From: Gemmiger sp.
GTDB taxonomy: Bacteria > Bacillota > Clostridia > Oscillospirales > Ruminococcaceae
Assembly: GCA_028710135.1 (NCBI GenBank)
Contig: JAQUSS010000005.1
Location: forward strand, 1-52,273
Direction of reading: 5' to 3'
DNA: 52,273 bases
In this document: in pieces, positions 1,494-11,110 of the stretch
Layout of the letters: each line of letters starts with the position of its first letter
Position numbering within the stretch: position 1 is the first letter of the stretch
The notes under the pieces: model-generated
The model's input: only the letters and a program-made list of their open reading frames with translations
Told to the model about the DNA's origin: nothing
Databases searched by the model: none
Made by a program: the position numbers and the translations under genes

Positions 1494-1562
1494 AACGCAA
1501 AAAGGGCGTTGCAGCCTTTTGTTTATAAAACGCTGATACTTAAAAAACATGGAGGAATTAGA

Positions 1563-2957
1563 ATGAAACTCGCAAAACAGCTTTTCACCACGGTGGCCGG
1601 CCTTGCACTGGCTACCCTGCTGGCCGTGCCGGCGTTTGCCGCCCCCACGCCGGCCACCCCCGCACCCAAAGCGGAAATTGACGTAACCAAAATTGTGACG
1701 ACGGACGATGCAACCAAGTTCCCGCTGGGGGACGAGTACAAATTCAAGCTTGAGCCTGTCGACGTGGTGATGGGGCGTGATGGGGGAACAAAGTTTACAA
1801 AGAAAGATATGCCCATGCCGGCAGCAGACACAAATCTGAATGTAACTGTAGATGGTGTGAATGAAAACCGCACCGCTACGCTGACCATCAAGGGGCTTGC
1901 TTCGAAGGATACGGTTGGTGATGGCGACCAGAAGCGCGACCGTGACGGCTTGTTCCCCAGCATGACCTACACCAACACCGGCATTTATACCTATAAGCTG
2001 ACAGAAATTATCCCTACCCAGGGAGAAACCGGCGTTATCTACGATACTACAGAATATTTCATCAACGTGTATGTAACCAACGTGATTGATGATGTCACCA
2101 AGCAACCGGTAGTGAATGCAGATGGTACGCTAGCTGTTACCGTCAGCAACATTACCTTGTACAAGGAAACAAACGGCAATATTGCGCTGCAAGACAAGGA
2201 TAATAACGATATCAAGGCAGAGGATGCCGACGACGATGCAAAAGTTGCTATCACAACTGCCCCGAAAACCGACGATGCCACAACCATGGCCATCAACGCC
2301 CCGTTCACCAACAAATTTGACGTTGAGGATTTGACCATTTCCAAAACCGTTACCGGCAACTTGGCCGACCCCGATAAAGAGTTTGATTTTACCTTTACCC
2401 CTGGCGATAATGCGACCACTGGCTACGAATATACATACGAGGTATACACCATGGCGGGCGATGCCCCGGCCGCTGGTGATGTGCCAGTAGTTCCCTCGAA
2501 GGCAGGTTCTTTCACCGATGGTGGCACCAACAAGGTCAGCCTCAAGCACAAGCAGTATGTTGTTGTTACCGGCGTGCCGGTTGGCCTCAAGTATACCATT
2601 GCTGAAACGGCTGTCACTACCCCCGCGAACCCCAGCGCCTATACCACAGCGATTGAATGGCAGAATGGTAATGCCACGGTGGACGCAGACCATGGCACCT
2701 TGGGCGATATTGAAAAGGGAACTAGTGTGGTGACGACCGGCGAAAAAGTGATTAAAACCACCACCACGAAAGCCGGCGAAACAGGCAAGCGGGATAACCA
2801 TGCCTACTACACCAACCACGTAGAGCAAACCACCCCCACCGGCGTGTTGCTGCGTGTGCTGCCCTTTGTTCTGTTGGCAGGTATGCTGGTTGCCGGTATC
2901 GCCCTGATGCTGCTCAACCGCAAAAAGAACCGTGAAAATGGGTACCAAGGGCTGTGA
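1563..2957 (+). CDS. major pilin with FctA/Spy0128-like isopeptide domains
   Basis: RBS ggagg upstream of the ATG at 1563. Signal peptide MKLAKQLFTTVAGLALATLLAVPAFAA; repeated motif LTISKTVTGNLADPDKEFDFTFT; C-terminal TTPTG + TM + NRKKN. Confidence 0.85.
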   Translation: MKLAKQLFTTVAGLALATLLAVPAFAAPTPATPAPKAEIDVTKIVTTDDATKFPLGDEYKFKLEPVDVVMGRDGGTKFTKKDMPMPAADTNLNVTVDGVNENRTATLTIKGLASKDTVGDGDQKRDRDGLFPSMTYTNTGIYTYKLTEIIPTQGETGVIYDTTEYFINVYVTNVIDDVTKQPVVNADGTLAVTVSNITLYKETNGNIALQDKDNNDIKAEDADDDAKVAITTAPKTDDATTMAINAPFTNKFDVEDLTISKTVTGNLADPDKEFDFTFTPGDNATTGYEYTYEVYTMAGDAPAAGDVPVVPSKAGSFTDGGTNKVSLKHKQYVVVTGVPVGLKYTIAETAVTTPANPSAYTTAIEWQNGNATVDADHGTLGDIEKGTSVVTTGEKVIKTTTTKAGETGKRDNHAYYTNHVEQTTPTGVLLRVLPFVLLAGMLVAGIALMLLNRKKNRENGYQGL

Positions 2958-3742
2958 TTGCGGCAAAACCGGCACCCCAAAAACCTGTTTCTCAGCACCT
3001 TTGGGGGGCATTTTCCGGCACCAACCGCTTTTTGGATAACGTGGTTAGCGCGGTGCTGGCGGTGCTGCTGCTGTTTACCGGCTACGCCCTGTGGAACATT
3101 TGGCAGGTATACCGCGGCGCGGCGGTGGATGCGCAAATTGTTGGCTATAAACCCGATGGCACCAACAACGCGCTCAGCTTGGCCGAGCTGCAAGGCATCA
3201 ACCCCGAGGTTTGCGGCTGGCTAACCATACCCGATACCAACATCGATTACCCGCTGGTGCAAGGCCCCGATAATGCCGCCTACCTGAACCGGGATGTTTA
3301 CGGCAATTTTGCAGTTAGCGGCAGCATCTTTCTCGATTATAAAAACCAACCCGATTTTACGGATTTTTACACCATCATCTACGGCCACCATATGGATGGC
3401 GGCGCTATGTTTGGTGATGTAACCAACTTCCGGCAGGAAGAATATTTTGCGGCCCGCCCCACCGGCACCATCTTTTTGCAAAACGCTACCCTGCCGCTGG
3501 ATATTTTGGCCTGTGTGGATGCAAGCGCCTACGACCGTATGCTCTATACCCTAAATTATGGCGATGCCGCCGCACAGCAAGCCCTGCTAAACTATATCCG
3601 CGAAAATGCCGTGCAGTACCGCGAGCAAACCCTTGCCCCCGGCGATGTGCTAACGGCACTTTCCACCTGCTCTACCGCATCGGCGGATGCCCGCACCATT
3701 TTAATTGCCGTAGTGCGCCGTTCGGGCGTGCAAACGGGCTGA
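2954..3742 (+). CDS. class B sortase
   Basis: N-terminal TM; WLTIPDTNIDYPLVQGPDNAAYLNRDVYG; IIYGHHMDGGAMFGDV (catalytic His); LSTCSTASADARTILIAV (catalytic Cys and Arg). GTG start overlaps the upstream stop. Confidence 0.9.
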   Translation: MIAAKPAPQKPVSQHLWGAFSGTNRFLDNVVSAVLAVLLLFTGYALWNIWQVYRGAAVDAQIVGYKPDGTNNALSLAELQGINPEVCGWLTIPDTNIDYPLVQGPDNAAYLNRDVYGNFAVSGSIFLDYKNQPDFTDFYTIIYGHHMDGGAMFGDVTNFRQEEYFAARPTGTIFLQNATLPLDILACVDASAYDRMLYTLNYGDAAAQQALLNYIRENAVQYREQTLAPGDVLTALSTCSTASADARTILIAVVRRSGVQTG

Positions 3743-3755
3743 AAGGAGGCCACGA

Positions 3756-4460
3756 TTGCGCCACAGTTTTTTAAATAGATGGCTACCCCTTGTGCTGGTG
3801 TGCGTGGCGGGCTTACTGTTCAGTGTTTCGGCCTATGCAGCCGAGCCGGGCGCGGCTGCCGCCCCGGTTACCGCCAAGGTGGAAATTGCCGCAAGCCTTG
3901 TTTTGCAGGGCAATATGCCCGGCGGTGCCGGCCCCTATACCTTTACCCTAACGGCGCAGGATGCCGCCAACCCCATGCCCGCCGGTGCAAGCGATGGGGT
4001 AAAAACCGTTACCCAGGCGGGGGCGGGGGACTTTAGCTTTGGTAGCATCACCTTCCCCAAAGTGGGGGAGTACCACTATACCATACGCCAAACGCCCGGC
4101 AATTTGCCCGATTGCCGCTACGATACCCGCGTGTACACGGCAACCGTGTATGTGCAGTGGCAAGCCGAGGTGGCGGGCGCATTGCAGGCCACCCTGGTTT
4201 TGGGTGAAAACGGCAACCCCGCAAAACCGGCGGCTGTGCAGTTTACCACCACCGGCAGCGCGCCGGATGCCGCCGGGCCTGCAACCACGCCACCGCCGCC
4301 GCAGGCCAGCGCCGCGCCCACCGGCGTGGGGGCTGGTGGGCCGTGGCTGGCCCCACAAACGGGCGATGCCGCCAATATAGCGCTGCTGTTTTGGGCGCTG
4401 GTGGCATCGGCCACCGGGCTGCTGGCCCTTGCCATCTTGCGTGCAAAACGCAAAAGCTAA
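3756..4460 (+). CDS. minor pilin / FctA-like surface protein
   Basis: Signal peptide; GPYTFTLTAQD and GEYHYTIRQTPGN pilin motifs; C-terminal LAPQTGD sorting-like signal, TM and RAKRKS. Start is probably TTG after aggagg. Confidence 0.75.
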   Translation: MRHSFLNRWLPLVLVCVAGLLFSVSAYAAEPGAAAAPVTAKVEIAASLVLQGNMPGGAGPYTFTLTAQDAANPMPAGASDGVKTVTQAGAGDFSFGSITFPKVGEYHYTIRQTPGNLPDCRYDTRVYTATVYVQWQAEVAGALQATLVLGENGNPAKPAAVQFTTTGSAPDAAGPATTPPPPQASAAPTGVGAGGPWLAPQTGDAANIALLFWALVASATGLLALAILRAKRKS

Positions 4461-4548: not shown

Positions 4549-6084
4549 ATGCTTATTTCCTCTTTGTTTTTTGCCCTAAGCCTCATCTTGATTTTGGGGC
4601 TGATTGCAGGCTTTATCGTTACCTGGGGCTATGTGAAAGCCCCGCCGGACCAAGCCTACATTATTTCCGGCATGAAAAGCGAGGGCAAAATTTTGATTGG
4701 CCGCGCGGGGATACGCATCCCATTTTTGGAGCGGCTGGATAAATTGTACCTTGGCCAGATGACGGTGGATATCAAAACCGAGCAATCGGTGCCCACCAAC
4801 GATTTTATCAACGTGAATGTGGATGCCGTTGCCAAGGTGCGCATTTCCCCCACCACCGATGGGATTAAGCAGGCGGCAAAAAACTTTTTAAACAAGCACC
4901 CGGAGGCCATCACGGCAGATTTGCAGGATTCTTTGCAGGGCAATATGCGGGAGATTATCGGCACTCTGACCCTTAAGGACATCAACACCGACCGCGACAG
5001 TTTTTCCGACCAGGTGATGCAAAAAGCATCGCGCGATATGGAAAAGCTGGGCATTGAAATACTATCCTGCAACATCCAAAATGTTACCGATGAAAACGGC
5101 CTTATCAAGGATTTGGGTGCCGATAACACCAGCCGCATCAAAAAGGATGCGGCCATCGCCAAGGCCCAGGCAGACCGCGATGTTGCCATTGCACAATCGG
5201 AAGCCGACAAAACGGCCAACGAGGCCCGTGTGCGGGCACAGACCGAAATTGCCCAGCGCAATAACGAACTGGCCATCCGGGAGGCCGAGCTGAAAGCACA
5301 ATCGGATGCCGAGAAGGCCAAGGCGGATGCCGCCTATGAAATTCAGCAGCAGGCGCAGCGCAAAACCATTGAAATTGCCAAGGCGGATGCGGATATTGCC
5401 AAGCAAGAAAAAGAGGTAATTGTGAAGCAGCGCGAGGCCGAGGTGCAGGAGGAAAGCCTAAACGCCACCATCAAAAAGCAGGCGGATGCCGATTTGTATA
5501 AGCGCAAGCAGGAGGCAGAAGCCAAAAAGTTTGAGCAGGAGCGCAGCGCCGAGGCGGAAAAATTTGCCGCCCAGCAGCGCGCCGAAGCACTGCGGATTGG
5601 CAAGGAGCAGGAGGCCGCCGGTATCAAGGTGGTGGGCGAGGCGGAAGCCGAGGCCATCCGCCAGCGCGGCGTTGCCGAAGCCGAGGCCATGGAGAAAAAG
5701 GCGGAGGCCTACAAAAAATATGGCCAGGCGGCCATGGCGGAAATGGTGGTTAAAATTTTGCCCCAAATTGCAAAAGAGGTGGCCACCCCGCTTGAAAAAA
5801 TTGATAAAATTACCATTTTTGGCGGCGGAAGCGATGGCTCTGCCGGGGTGGATGGGCTGGCGGGCAATGTGCCTGCCGTGATGGCCCGGACCTTCCAAAC
5901 CGTTAAGGAAGCCACCGGCATTGATTTGGCCGATATTGTGCGCGCCGAAACCTACGATGCCAAGGTTACCCAAAACCTGAATATTTCGGGCCTGGGGGAG
6001 GGCGCGTCAAACCAAGTGGCCGCCGCCACCGCCGCCCGGGCGCTTGCCGATAAAGCAGGCGATAAGCCCGGCAAATTGAAATAA
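4549..6084 (+). CDS. flotillin / SPFH-domain protein
   Basis: N-terminal TM, SPFH-like N-terminal part, then a long Ala/Glu/Lys-rich coiled coil (AEAEAIRQRGVAEAEAMEKKAEAYKKYGQAAMAEMVVKILPQIAKEVATPLEKIDKI) typical of flotillins. Confidence 0.92.
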   Translation: MLISSLFFALSLILILGLIAGFIVTWGYVKAPPDQAYIISGMKSEGKILIGRAGIRIPFLERLDKLYLGQMTVDIKTEQSVPTNDFINVNVDAVAKVRISPTTDGIKQAAKNFLNKHPEAITADLQDSLQGNMREIIGTLTLKDINTDRDSFSDQVMQKASRDMEKLGIEILSCNIQNVTDENGLIKDLGADNTSRIKKDAAIAKAQADRDVAIAQSEADKTANEARVRAQTEIAQRNNELAIREAELKAQSDAEKAKADAAYEIQQQAQRKTIEIAKADADIAKQEKEVIVKQREAEVQEESLNATIKKQADADLYKRKQEAEAKKFEQERSAEAEKFAAQQRAEALRIGKEQEAAGIKVVGEAEAEAIRQRGVAEAEAMEKKAEAYKKYGQAAMAEMVVKILPQIAKEVATPLEKIDKITIFGGGSDGSAGVDGLAGNVPAVMARTFQTVKEATGIDLADIVRAETYDAKVTQNLNISGLGEGASNQVAAATAARALADKAGDKPGKLK

Positions 6085-6105
6085 GCTGCATTTTGCGGGG
6101 GCGCT

Positions 6106-6130
6106 AAAAAATGGCCGGAGGCTATTTTTT
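6106..6130 (+). terminator. putative rho-independent terminator after the flotillin gene
   Basis: aaaaaatggcc-gga-ggctatttttt hairpin 22 bp after the stop. Confidence 0.6.
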
Positions 6131-6194
6131 GAGCATCTGCCCCGGTTGCCGCCTTTCGCCGCCCTGCGCCTAGCTTTTGGGGGCCAGGCGGCCC

Positions 6195-6264
6195 ACCTGC
6201 CATTCTGAAGAAGGTGCCAAAGAACCGTATCCAAAGGTTCTAGGGCACCCTCAGGGTGGCAGGT
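6195..6264. repeat. ~70-bp imperfect palindrome with 8-bp perfect terminal inverted repeats
   Basis: acctgcca...ggtgcc...agaacc-gtatccaaa-ggttct...ggcacc...tggcaggt. Nested arms pair. Confidence 0.6.
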
Positions 6265-6439
6265 TTTTTGTTGTGCGGGGCAACTTAGGATGGCAGGTTG
6301 CTTGTTGTACCTGGCTTTTTGCCTCCGCTTTTTATGGCAATTGCAGTTTATTTCGGTTATGGTAATCGATAGCGCATAAGAAATAAACGGTATAAAAACT
6401 ATAGGTGGGCATCGCATTGGGCAGTTTTATCTAACTTTT

Positions 6440-8809
6440 TCAGTCCTCTAATCCTGTGGTGGTATAAGCTATGCACGGCAAGCCTTGAATAAAATCATCA
6501 AGATTCAGCGTACTTGGCGCGTCAGCAATCGTTTTGAATATATCTTGAATATGTACGAAAGTTTTTTCACGAGATGCTTTGATGTGATTCAAAGATATCG
6601 TATCGAGTGTCATCCATAAAAAATAGAAATTTTGGTCGGTTTTATGGCGCGTTCCCAACAAGAGCGGTAGCTGCTGCCCTTTTTCTCCTACGAGGCAGCA
6701 TAGCTTTTCAATGAAGGTTTCGACTGCAGCTATAGAGATTTCAAAATCATTGCCATTGAGCGAGGCTAAATTTTCCAGCATTTTGGTGATACGGTCTTTC
6801 GATGAAACTCTGGCACAAATGTGGCGATCACGCACATATATAGTCAGCAGGTCCTTATAACGCATTTTATTATGTCGGGTTTGATAATTAAGATAGGCCA
6901 ATGCGGTGATTAGTTCTTCGTTGCTCATGCGAGTATCTTGTACACGAAAAATTTTCCCTTCATATTCCGATGCTAAATCTTTGATTTTCTTTGTGATATC
7001 TTGCGCCACATAGGCATTCCACATTTCAAAAGAGTTCGGCTTGATTGGGAATGGTTTGGTGTTAAGACGAAGAAACAAATCAATGCTGTTGAAATTTGGA
7101 TTTTGCATTGCATCGATTTCCACCACATCAAGCGAAAAATCCAAGATATTGTCTATGTATTTGGGGTACCTTTCCTGTACTTTGTCGACGTTTAAGCCGT
7201 TCAGTTCTTTCAGGATTATCAACCCGCTAAGTTTGAACTTGTGTTTTTTAGACGTTTGCTCTATCCCGTTTTCGTCTTTATACGTTTTCCCCAAAAAGCC
7301 TATCAATGTAAGGATACGCTGCTGCCCATCAATAACTTCTTTTATTTTATCTTCTCGCTTATAAATATAGATGGGGGGAATTTTTATCCCAAGCATAATG
7401 CTTTCGAGCAAGTAAGAAGATTTTTGTATGTTCTTCGTTTCGGATCGCTGGTAAGATGGGCGTACAAGAAATTTTGATTGCTTCATTTCTGCAAGAATAT
7501 CGTAAATTGTCGTAGAGGTTGGATCGGGCTTTATCAACCTTAATTGGCTTAATTGCTCACAGGGAGAGGATTCTCCCATGATTTTAGAAAAACGTGAAGC
7601 ATTTTTGATTTTGCCTGCAAAATCCACCGCATATTTTTGTGTAAAATAGTTTGCTGCAAAGCGATATCGATCCAAAGTTGCATTTCTATAATGACTTCCC
7701 GTGGATTCGAAAATAGATTCTGGTGTTTTGCTGTCGTTTATAATTCCCTCCCATAGCCGTACATCATGCTGTGAGTTGATTAAGTCTTCGGCAATTTGAG
7801 AGGCATCACTGAATGTAATGGCTTTTCCTTGCTCCAATGCTATAAAAATTCCCCAACAGAGGCTTTCGTACAATAGTGTATTGTTATAGATGTATTTTGA
7901 GCTGATTTTGGATTTTACTTCTGCAAGGATATCAACCACGGTCAAAAAGCGAGCAACCTCGTTAGCTGCTGATTTTTTAGTGATTTCGGCCGAATAAAAA
8001 CTGCGAATGATATCATACCGATGCGAAGATTTTGCATAACTATATATGGGGATTTCCGGCATCGTAAGGAGAGTGCGAGCACGATCCAATAGAATATTGA
8101 TTTTATCCCGAGGGGCGAGCATTGTTTTGTTTTTAGACAAGAATAAATCTTCAGCCTTTCCCAATCTCACACTGTCTTTGCCAAAAGTTTCTTTTAAGGT
8201 GGTTGTGATAGCATCCGCAATGTATTCTGCACGAGCATTCTCTTCCCTTTTCAGCGGTGTGATACCAGAATTATAGCGTTTAAAAATCTCTTTTTTTATT
8301 TTGTCTGCTTTTTCTACCGTTAAAGAGGGTTCGTTGGGAACACGGCACTGAAGTATACGCAGCTTTGTGCTAGTGAAACAATCTCTTGTGTTAGAATCAA
8401 GGTCGACATATCTTTTACCGGCAAAAGAAAACAGACGATGTAACCCTGACTCTTGTAAGGGGAGATCGTTATGTAAAAAGTTAAGCAATGTTTCGTAGCG
8501 TTGCCGCCCGTCAATTACCTCGTTCTTTTCGTTCAGAACAGCTTCACCGTCGAATAAAACCAGGGGTGGTATTTCTGTGCCCAATAAAATACTCTCAATA
8601 AAATAAGTTGCCTTTTCTTTATCCCACACATAGTTCCTTTGAAAATACGGTTTATAATTGATTCTTGAAGAAAAACGTTCATTTAAAAAAATGGATTGCA
8701 CCGTACGCAATGTGTTTTCTATCCTTAAAGTGGATTTAAAAATATCTCGAATATCGCTGTAATCAAGATTCCAAGAGGAGATGTCCTTTGTATTAGCCAT
8801 TGTTTTCAC
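6440..8809 (-). CDS. tandem DUF262 (GmrSD/ParB-like) protein
   Basis: Two DUF262-like blocks: YFQRNYVWDKEKATYFIESILLGTEIPPLVLF...EVIDGRQRYETLLNFL and SYQRSETKNIQKSSYLLESIMLGIKIPPIYIY...EVIDGQQRILTLIGFL. An alternative start is M4 at 8800. Confidence 0.85.
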   Translation of the reverse strand: MKTMANTKDISSWNLDYSDIRDIFKSTLRIENTLRTVQSIFLNERFSSRINYKPYFQRNYVWDKEKATYFIESILLGTEIPPLVLFDGEAVLNEKNEVIDGRQRYETLLNFLHNDLPLQESGLHRLFSFAGKRYVDLDSNTRDCFTSTKLRILQCRVPNEPSLTVEKADKIKKEIFKRYNSGITPLKREENARAEYIADAITTTLKETFGKDSVRLGKAEDLFLSKNKTMLAPRDKINILLDRARTLLTMPEIPIYSYAKSSHRYDIIRSFYSAEITKKSAANEVARFLTVVDILAEVKSKISSKYIYNNTLLYESLCWGIFIALEQGKAITFSDASQIAEDLINSQHDVRLWEGIINDSKTPESIFESTGSHYRNATLDRYRFAANYFTQKYAVDFAGKIKNASRFSKIMGESSPCEQLSQLRLIKPDPTSTTIYDILAEMKQSKFLVRPSYQRSETKNIQKSSYLLESIMLGIKIPPIYIYKREDKIKEVIDGQQRILTLIGFLGKTYKDENGIEQTSKKHKFKLSGLIILKELNGLNVDKVQERYPKYIDNILDFSLDVVEIDAMQNPNFNSIDLFLRLNTKPFPIKPNSFEMWNAYVAQDITKKIKDLASEYEGKIFRVQDTRMSNEELITALAYLNYQTRHNKMRYKDLLTIYVRDRHICARVSSKDRITKMLENLASLNGNDFEISIAAVETFIEKLCCLVGEKGQQLPLLLGTRHKTDQNFYFLWMTLDTISLNHIKASREKTFVHIQDIFKTIADAPSTLNLDDFIQGLPCIAYTTTGLED

Positions 8810-10340
8810 CTATCTGCATTCGTTGCATTCTCTCTTTCGAGTTAAATCCGGGTTCGTACTTGGAAACAACAGAACCCTGAAAGAAAAACTCGTTATTATA
8901 ATTTATCCGTTGCTTGACCAATGCGTCTAAGGCAAACCGAAATACATATTGCCAACTTTTGTTTTTCATTGCATTCGTTATTTGATCTATCGTTGGGAGC
9001 CATTCATAAAGGTACCTACATTCGTCTAAGGCTACCATGTCCGTATACATTTCGGTTTGTTTCGCGCAATATTGGTAAGCCTTACCCATTTGCGTATTGC
9101 TGTGCAAGGGGTAGGTGAGTTGATTGATTACGACATCGAAAAAGAGCGACGGGGTTGCTTTGTCCAAAAAGCGATAAAGATTCTCTTCGGAGTCGAAAAA
9201 CTCTCGGCTTACTTGTATTTCTGCGCGAGTTCCCATTTTTCCGGTTTTAACAAGAGTAAAAAGTTTGGCCCCTTTTACCAATTGCTTCCAATCTCCATCA
9301 AGCCCTACAATATCAGCACAGAGTGTTTTTAGGTTGCGGCCTGCTCCGGACATTCTGGACTCATCCCGCAAAAGCCAATCCAAAGTGAGAATCCATCTAC
9401 AAACGGAGTTGTTTGTGATTTGATTAATATCCGACAACTCCGTTTTCGAATCATAGGAGAAGAGTTCTTCTTGGGTGAATAAATTGGAATACTGCGCTAA
9501 CTCCCCAAAGCGCCGTAGAGGTATGATGACCGCTGCTAAATCCGATAAAATGTGTGTAATAAATTCTCCGTAAAACGCGTTGAATTCCGTATGAACATTT
9601 TCGTACATTTTTTGGAAAGCGGTTGTATTTAACCGTCCATTTTCTTCAAAAAGTTGAATGTTAGGTGTTTTCTTGAAAAGCATATATAAAGCAATTATGC
9701 GTGATAAATCGTCAATATCATCTTCACTATTAGGGCTAGGCTTCGCAAAGTTTGTAATTAGTATCCCGGGTGAGTTAATCCGTTGGTAATATAGTAAAGT
9801 TGCCACGCTGCGTAGCGCGTGCTGGGAAGAGCTTATGGTTCCACAAGCATCGATATATACAACGTCAAACTTCTTTGGTGAATGCTTGAAAAACTGCTCC
9901 ACAGACATTTTTATGATTTTTGGCTGAGAAAATGTGGACGTATTATAGGCGCAAATAGCTTGCGAATAAGTAGCTTGATTGTTTTCAAAGGCCCAAATGT
10001 TTTGCGGCAACACACCCAAAGAAATCAATTCGTTAAAATCATTCTGCGGTTGCGGGCCGGATAAGTAGCAAATGCTTAAATCGGATGGCCTTTTGTTTCC
10101 GACGATTGCATCGTGCAATGATTCCCAGTTCGTAATATACGCGGGTTCAATTAAATCTGCTTGGCAGCGCATAGGCTCGTCTTTATCATACTGATGGAAA
10201 AAATCTAAAACCTGCCGCACATAAGGCCGAGGTATACAGCAGATATGTTCTCTCTCCATCGTTAAAGCAGCCACGGCTTGGGACAAAATAAGATGACGCG
10301 CCTTATTTTTTGTTTCTTGCTGGTAATCGTAGATTGGCAT
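8793..10340 (-). CDS. uncharacterised protein with a Rossmann/methyltransferase-like N-terminal half, partner of the DUF262 protein
   Basis: 515 aa. Strong SD (ggggggag) before ATG. Alternating beta/alpha pattern: DLSICYLSGPQPQNDFNELISLGVLPQNIWAFENNQATYSQAI...KKFDVVYIDACGTISSSQHALRSVATLLYYQRINSPGILITNF. 3' end overlaps the DUF262 start. Confidence 0.7.
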   Translation of the reverse strand: MPIYDYQQETKNKARHLILSQAVAALTMEREHICCIPRPYVRQVLDFFHQYDKDEPMRCQADLIEPAYITNWESLHDAIVGNKRPSDLSICYLSGPQPQNDFNELISLGVLPQNIWAFENNQATYSQAICAYNTSTFSQPKIIKMSVEQFFKHSPKKFDVVYIDACGTISSSQHALRSVATLLYYQRINSPGILITNFAKPSPNSEDDIDDLSRIIALYMLFKKTPNIQLFEENGRLNTTAFQKMYENVHTEFNAFYGEFITHILSDLAAVIIPLRRFGELAQYSNLFTQEELFSYDSKTELSDINQITNNSVCRWILTLDWLLRDESRMSGAGRNLKTLCADIVGLDGDWKQLVKGAKLFTLVKTGKMGTRAEIQVSREFFDSEENLYRFLDKATPSLFFDVVINQLTYPLHSNTQMGKAYQYCAKQTEMYTDMVALDECRYLYEWLPTIDQITNAMKNKSWQYVFRFALDALVKQRINYNNEFFFQGSVVSKYEPGFNSKERMQRMQIGENNG

Positions 10341-10967: not shown

Positions 10968-11045
10968 GGCTGAGGGGATAAGCTTGAGGGAATAAGCCCT
11001 TGAAAATGCCGAGCAACAAAATGAAAGCTGCCCTAAAAAGCAAAA

Positions 11046-11077
11046 AAACCGCGCTGAAGTTTGATTCAGCGCGGTTT
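11046..11077. terminator. perfect-stem, potentially bidirectional rho-independent terminator
   Basis: aaaccgcgctgaa-gtttga-ttcagcgcggttt, 13-bp perfect stem flanked by an A-run and a T-run, downstream of the MATE gene. Confidence 0.85.
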
Positions 11078-11110
11078 TTGTTTGGAAATAAACAATTTGC
11101 ATCCCAAACC

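Follow-up and report, generated by a model that had tools for sequence, protein, structure and literature searches.

A rare gene pair joining a tandem-DUF262 protein to a methyltransferase-fold partner as a candidate anti-phage module

A coupled gene pair in Gemmiger

A stretch of 52,273 nucleotides from Gemmiger sp. (assembly GCA_028710135.1, contig JAQUSS010000005.1; this whole stretch is referred to below as 'the window') carries on its minus strand a two-gene cassette, in which a gene for a protein with two DUF262 domains (the 'tandem-DUF262' gene) lies directly downstream of a gene for a second protein, here termed the 'partner', that is predicted to adopt a methyltransferase-like fold. 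An earlier, sequence-only reading of this DNA had singled the cassette out as an AT-rich pair of overlapping, translationally coupled frames and a candidate defence system. The two frames are indeed present, and the 4-kb cassette has a guanine-plus-cytosine (GC) content of 0.397, compared with 0.572 across the remainder of the window, where not one 1-kb interval lies at or below 0.41. The features of the pair are as follows.

8793..10340, minus strand: partner gene, an uninterrupted open reading frame of 515 amino acids from an ATG, 5' of the tandem-DUF262 gene
6440..8809, minus strand: tandem-DUF262 gene, an uninterrupted open reading frame of 789 amino acids from a GTG at 8809
8793..8800, minus strand: start/stop overlap ATGGCTAA, 8 nucleotides if the tandem-DUF262 gene starts at the ATG at 8800, coupling both genes
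8498..8521, minus strand: first nucleoside triphosphate (NTP) pocket motif, EVIDGRQR, residues 97-104 of the 789-residue reading, nearly invariant in the homologue alignment
7316..7339, minus strand: second NTP-pocket motif, EVIDGQQR, residues 491-498 of the same reading, nearly invariant in the homologue alignment

Of the two candidate starts of the tandem-DUF262 gene, the in-frame ATG at 8800, closely preceded by AGG, is more likely than the GTG at 8809; if the latter is used, the overlap with the stop of the partner gene grows to 17 nucleotides. Homologous pairs show the same gene order, with short gaps or overlaps between the genes, and the coupling proposed from the sequence is borne out by both observations.

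The pair is a rare but genuine unit

Whether the two genes are conserved together, a question that the sequence-only reading had raised, was addressed by scanning 84,980 genomes with an alignment of the partner family, which returned 46 loci. At ten of these, all of them in Bacillota (Lachnospiraceae, Paenibacillus, other Clostridia and Marinisporobacter), a tandem-DUF262 gene stands directly downstream of the partner gene in the same order; it is split by an insertion in one Lachnospiraceae locus (L008) and its first part is broken in another locus (L012). One viral contig (L069/L077) adds a further pair. No DUF262 match was found within the fetched flanks of the remaining 36 genome loci. All 12 partner loci from low-GC Gram-positive bacteria, the window included, are followed immediately by the tandem-DUF262 gene. 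The 'paired' state requires one change when mapped on a tree of 49 partner-family proteins, and none of 500 shuffles gave so low a value; support for the exact branch is low (55).

Elsewhere the pair is scarce. The partner had no other match in 300 genomes of the phylum and the DUF262 profile none in 399 genomes; the pair is absent from 34 congeners, and phage GenBank records gave no match. The pair is thus rare, yet it is a genuine unit, and its association goes beyond chance, the same layout being found again at 11 other loci.

A partner with a noncanonical methyltransferase fold

The partner has no significant match in Pfam, NCBIfam or PADLOC, and its membership of a standard family annotated in any of the three was accordingly rejected. 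An AlphaFold (AF2) model built with a 42-sequence alignment (predicted local distance difference test score 90.2, predicted template modelling score 0.92) places Rossmann strands at residues 90-93, 115-118, 141-143, 158-164 and 188-199, followed by a large helical insert (residues 206-409) and an antiparallel beta hairpin (residues 420-439). The best matches of this model among structures in the PDB, as found with Foldseek, are class I methyltransferases (40 matches at E<=1e-3), and no sequence relatives of the partner were found in that database. Structure prediction and structural search therefore agree with the earlier suggestion of a methyltransferase-like Rossmann protein, and the model argues for a noncanonical form of the class I fold.

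What is noncanonical lies chiefly in the motifs. The glycine-rich motif I (GxGxG) is absent, and an invariant GPxPxND occupies its place. Twenty-two residues are invariant across the 42 aligned members, including G95, P96, P98, N100, D101, E119, D159, D164, N197, K427, M431, D434, D439, C441 and R442; of these, E119 is the acidic residue at the end of strand 2 (the ribose-binding position; 42 of 42), and D159, D164, N197, K427, M431 and D434, on the side where a cofactor would be expected, are the same in every member, paired or solo. To judge from the standard topology, the conserved residues may line a single pocket, and the partner is read as probably keeping an active or binding site rather than being a decayed fold. 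The motif IV position mostly reads D-A/F-C-G, with neither an NPPY nor a PC motif, and no target-recognition domain was recognised.

These features bear on one way of reading the pair, as a restriction-modification-like or epigenetic system in which the partner would mark host DNA as self and the DUF262 protein would act on unmarked DNA. The fold of the partner would suit such a role, as would the type I restriction-modification genes or C5 methylase gene found near several of the family members that occur without a DUF262 gene. The divergent motif IV and the lack of a recognised target-recognition domain speak against it, however, as does the fact that Pfam recognises no nuclease domain in either protein, and of all the explanations weighed here this one appears the least probable.

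The tandem-DUF262 protein

The second protein matches PF03235 (GmrSD_N) in two stretches (Pfam, E 5.2e-33) and would, on its sequence, be a tandem GmrSD_N protein of the ParB/Srx-type NTPase class. Both full DUF262 motif sets reported from the sequence are present and kept in nearly all homologues, and the DGQQR of the second is invariant in a further DUF262 alignment; the protein as a whole is conserved in the 11 other pairs. The sequence-only reading had suggested that the two domains of one chain could act as an internal dimer, which would be one possible arrangement. The AlphaFold model of this protein is of moderate quality (predicted template modelling score 0.54), and Foldseek returned only weak ParB and BrxU matches with it, in keeping with a model of that quality. 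The absence of a C-terminal DUF1524/HNH domain, noted at the outset, also holds: Pfam finds neither in the protein, and neither occurs in the three same-strand frames just downstream. An HNH motif displaced to another frame, or to a separate small downstream open reading frame (136 amino acids, 6007-6417), was considered and rejected, as no such motif exists there.

The best PADLOC match of the protein is NsnA, a component of Menshen (NsnA/B/C), at 1.3e-52 over residues 424-653, in its second half. This match, together with the DUF262 gene that Dazbog likewise has (PMC10952713), is what one would expect if the pair were an already described system (Dazbog, Menshen or another DUF262 system) whose models do not reach so divergent a copy. 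The NsnA model, however, spans 385 positions and fits best on one of the two domains, the OLD/TOPRIM component of Menshen is not among the flanking genes scanned, and the partner matches no PADLOC model at all. Dazbog, which is linked to phage DNA methylases, resembles the window pair in having a DUF262 gene and no DUF1524, a likeness drawn from its description only. Identity with a described system is considered improbable, although the pair may yet prove to belong to Dazbog.

An HNH domain or a partner

Three tandem-DUF262 homologues occur without a partner: two of full length (857 amino acids in genome G1049 and 858 in G1325) and a Priestia plasmid copy that lacks the first domain. Their layout is homologous to that of the window protein, with approximately 39% identity, and all three differ from it in ending in an HNH domain (a PF01844 match for G1049 and Priestia, a motif read from the sequence for G1325). 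No partner gene exists anywhere in the G1049 and G1325 genomes, nor around the Priestia plasmid locus, the sole region checked in that case. Conversely, all ten partnered copies with a readable C-terminus (with the final fragment of the split L008 gene included) stop before the HNH domain. The Priestia 'HNH endonuclease' had been considered as evidence that the family keeps its HNH domain; that interpretation was rejected, and it led instead to the recognition that HNH domain and partner exclude each other. The HNH copies have the partnered copy of Marinisporobacter as their sister on the DUF262 tree.

Among tandem-DUF262 loci the presence of the partner coincides exactly with the lack of the HNH nuclease, and the partner probably stands in for that nuclease as the effector.

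A Schlafen group 3 helicase gene takes the upstream operon position in G1049 and G1325 (identified by sequence reading in the latter). In G1049 (L088:308-8826) it heads a defence-like operon that continues with the tandem DUF262-HNH gene, an AAA_5 NTPase and a DUF2357/PDDEXK_7 (McrBC-like) gene, and in G1325 (L093:1649-3728) an ATPase and a small HNH gene, called by eye as a Septu-like (PtuA/PtuB) pair, lie near the tandem DUF262-HNH gene.

Solo relatives and the P4 hotspot

Most members of the partner family are solo, in other phyla, on viral contigs and in Escherichia coli. The E. coli member WP_021572920.1 (hhalign against the partner family: probability 100, E 3e-86) occurs in 5 of 5,426 E. 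coli genomes, in every case 100% identical and beside the same integrase gene. Inspection of two of these genomes showed a P4-like satellite adjoining ssrA, with this gene alone lying between int and psu; in NZ_CP098203.1, for example, it occupies L067:14751-16388 as the only cargo of that interval. The psu-int interval is an antiviral hotspot of P4-like satellites (Rousset et al. 2022, PMC9122126), and this cargo position is the strongest sign that the partner family is defensive by itself. Solo members also occur on seven further viral contigs, in some cases inside phage-like gene runs. The link to defence proposed from the sequence of the window is strengthened by these hotspot, phage and satellite contexts.

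A weak match of the PADLOC model mad2 (PDLC04134, from MADS) extends over the strand 1-5 Rossmann core of four solo relatives (L033, L034, L041 and L043; best 4e-5), while the window partner itself gives no match; distant kinship is possible, and the literature on mad2 held nothing useful for the comparison.

The sequence-only reading had suggested that the partner may sense, or bind modified nucleotides, as a subunit of the system; this is now less likely than an effector role, given a family that is mostly solo, that serves as sole cargo in the P4 hotspot and that is present where HNH is missing. A related possibility is type IV-like restriction, in which the partner would read modified phage DNA, with cleavage left to the tandem-DUF262 protein or to a nuclease recruited from the host. 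The DUF262 proteins GmrSD, BrxU and SspE do act on or sense modified DNA (PMC10952713; PMC9646914), and proteins of the ParB/Srx fold can show nuclease activity (PMC4619093). The window pair shares with GmrSD and BrxU, which join DUF262 to DUF1524/HNH, a defence-linked DUF262 with a DGQQR-type NTP pocket; in contrast to them, it has two such domains per chain, no HNH or DUF1524 in cis or in the partner, and a partner with a methyltransferase fold. That neither protein has a recognised nuclease domain, that HNH is lost precisely where the partner appears, and that no DUF262 gene adjoins most of the relatives of the partner together make type IV-like restriction unlikely, although it is less so than the other alternatives weighed.

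Signs of horizontal transfer

The pair is AT-rich wherever its composition was determined: in all seven other loci measured its GC content is 0.25-0.29 and below that of the flanks, ranging from Marinisporobacter (0.263, flanks 0.282) to Paenibacillus (0.272, flanks 0.461). In one Lachnospiraceae locus, a 306-bp direct repeat (90%; L008:4220-4525 and 7483-7788) of the 3' end of rumA, a uracil-5-methyltransferase-like gene, lies just upstream of the pair, and a divergent rumA-like fragment lies beside it in two others (L009 and L011); the 3' end of rumA is likely an integration hotspot in Lachnospiraceae. A TnsA-family gene adjoins the Marinisporobacter pair (L032), and recombinase-like genes lie upstream of the pair in viral contig L069. 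Because of its low GC content and these rumA, TnsA and recombinase contexts, the evidence points to horizontal spread of the cassette.

Mobility of this kind would also be compatible with a non-defence accessory pair, serving for example RNA modification or the maintenance of an element, and the P4-hotspot argument is indeed one of location alone. The patchy spread, the low GC content, the phage, satellite and integrative contexts and the defence-type neighbours of the HNH sister form all argue against a non-defence role, which is held to be rather unlikely.

A DUF262 switch with an exchangeable effector

The pair is best described as a probable DUF262-based defence system with an undescribed methyltransferase-fold partner family. 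Its defence role is well supported by context. The more specific interpretation, to which a probability of roughly 0.45 is given, is that of a horizontally moving two-gene anti-phage module, in which the tandem-DUF262 protein would be an NTP-driven switch and the partner an effector that replaces HNH; under it we infer anti-phage activity, the use of S-adenosylmethionine, which of the two parts senses, and the target.

In SspE and BrxU the DUF262 domains control an attached nuclease through NTP binding and hydrolysis and a change of conformation or assembly (PMC9646914, PMC10952713), and it is by analogy with these two proteins that the tandem-DUF262 protein is assigned the part of the switch and its partner that of the acting component. 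With two ParB/Srx-type NTP pockets per chain, the former would serve as an NTP-driven sensor or switch whose conformation shifts on ligand binding and hydrolysis, as in SspE and BrxU, and the latter as the effector in place of the HNH nuclease carried by the sister DUF262 lineage. Upon sensing infection the DUF262 protein would release or activate the partner, which would then modify an essential target, so that phage production stops. Because the partner has no NPPY-type motif IV, that target would be RNA, protein or a nucleotide rather than a DNA base. SspE, a phosphorothioate-sensing DUF262-HNH nickase, is a close parallel in that its DUF262 NTPase switch is likewise proposed to control an effector; it differs in that the effector of the window pair would be a separate protein and no HNH is present, and no ssp or dnd genes were recognised among the neighbours of the pair.

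Three points weigh against this interpretation. The motif I of the partner is GPxPxND and not GxGxG, so that it could be a binding-only pseudo-enzyme. As the solo relatives make plain, members of the family can occur without a DUF262 switch, so that either of the two proteins could be the sensor. Finally, the exclusion between HNH and partner amounts to one switch, in either direction, on the DUF262 tree and involves three HNH copies, of which two are closely related; the independent events are few, and the replacement of HNH by the partner is something that we infer and not a rule.

A broader and somewhat more tentative proposal, which falls short of even odds, is that the GPxPxND family comprises new, usually stand-alone, methyltransferase-fold anti-phage effectors, which may have been recruited once, in low-GC Gram-positive bacteria, as a trans-acting replacement for HNH, with DUF262 acting as a general NTP switch for exchangeable effectors. 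DUF262 recurs in many defence systems, in several of which the coupling of sensing to killing is unclear, and a pair in which the nuclease is missing and a methyltransferase-fold protein takes its place offers a natural test of DUF262 as a modular switch. The partner family, which no Pfam or NCBIfam model matches, is a compact candidate for single-gene defence across several phyla.

Surroundings in the window

The cassette sits among ordinary chromosomal genes. Flotillin, sortase and pilin genes flank it on one side; on the other lie an alpha-L-fucosidase gene and a MatE transporter gene, whose terminator sets the transporter gene apart from the cassette.

11044..11079, minus strand: terminator-like hairpin of the upstream MatE gene, a 15-bp stem followed by a T tract

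A search for att-type repeats flanking the cassette gave only weak, chance-level repeats. Positions 1509-4460 encode a DUF7601 protein, a sortase and FctA-type isopeptide pilins, likely a pilus cluster. Between 16805 and 45258, genes for sugar ABC permeases are followed by those for rhamnosidases, GH42 and GH2 enzymes and a rhamnogalacturonan lyase with a GDSL esterase domain, and by its gene content this region is a predicted locus for the utilisation of pectin (rhamnogalacturonan).

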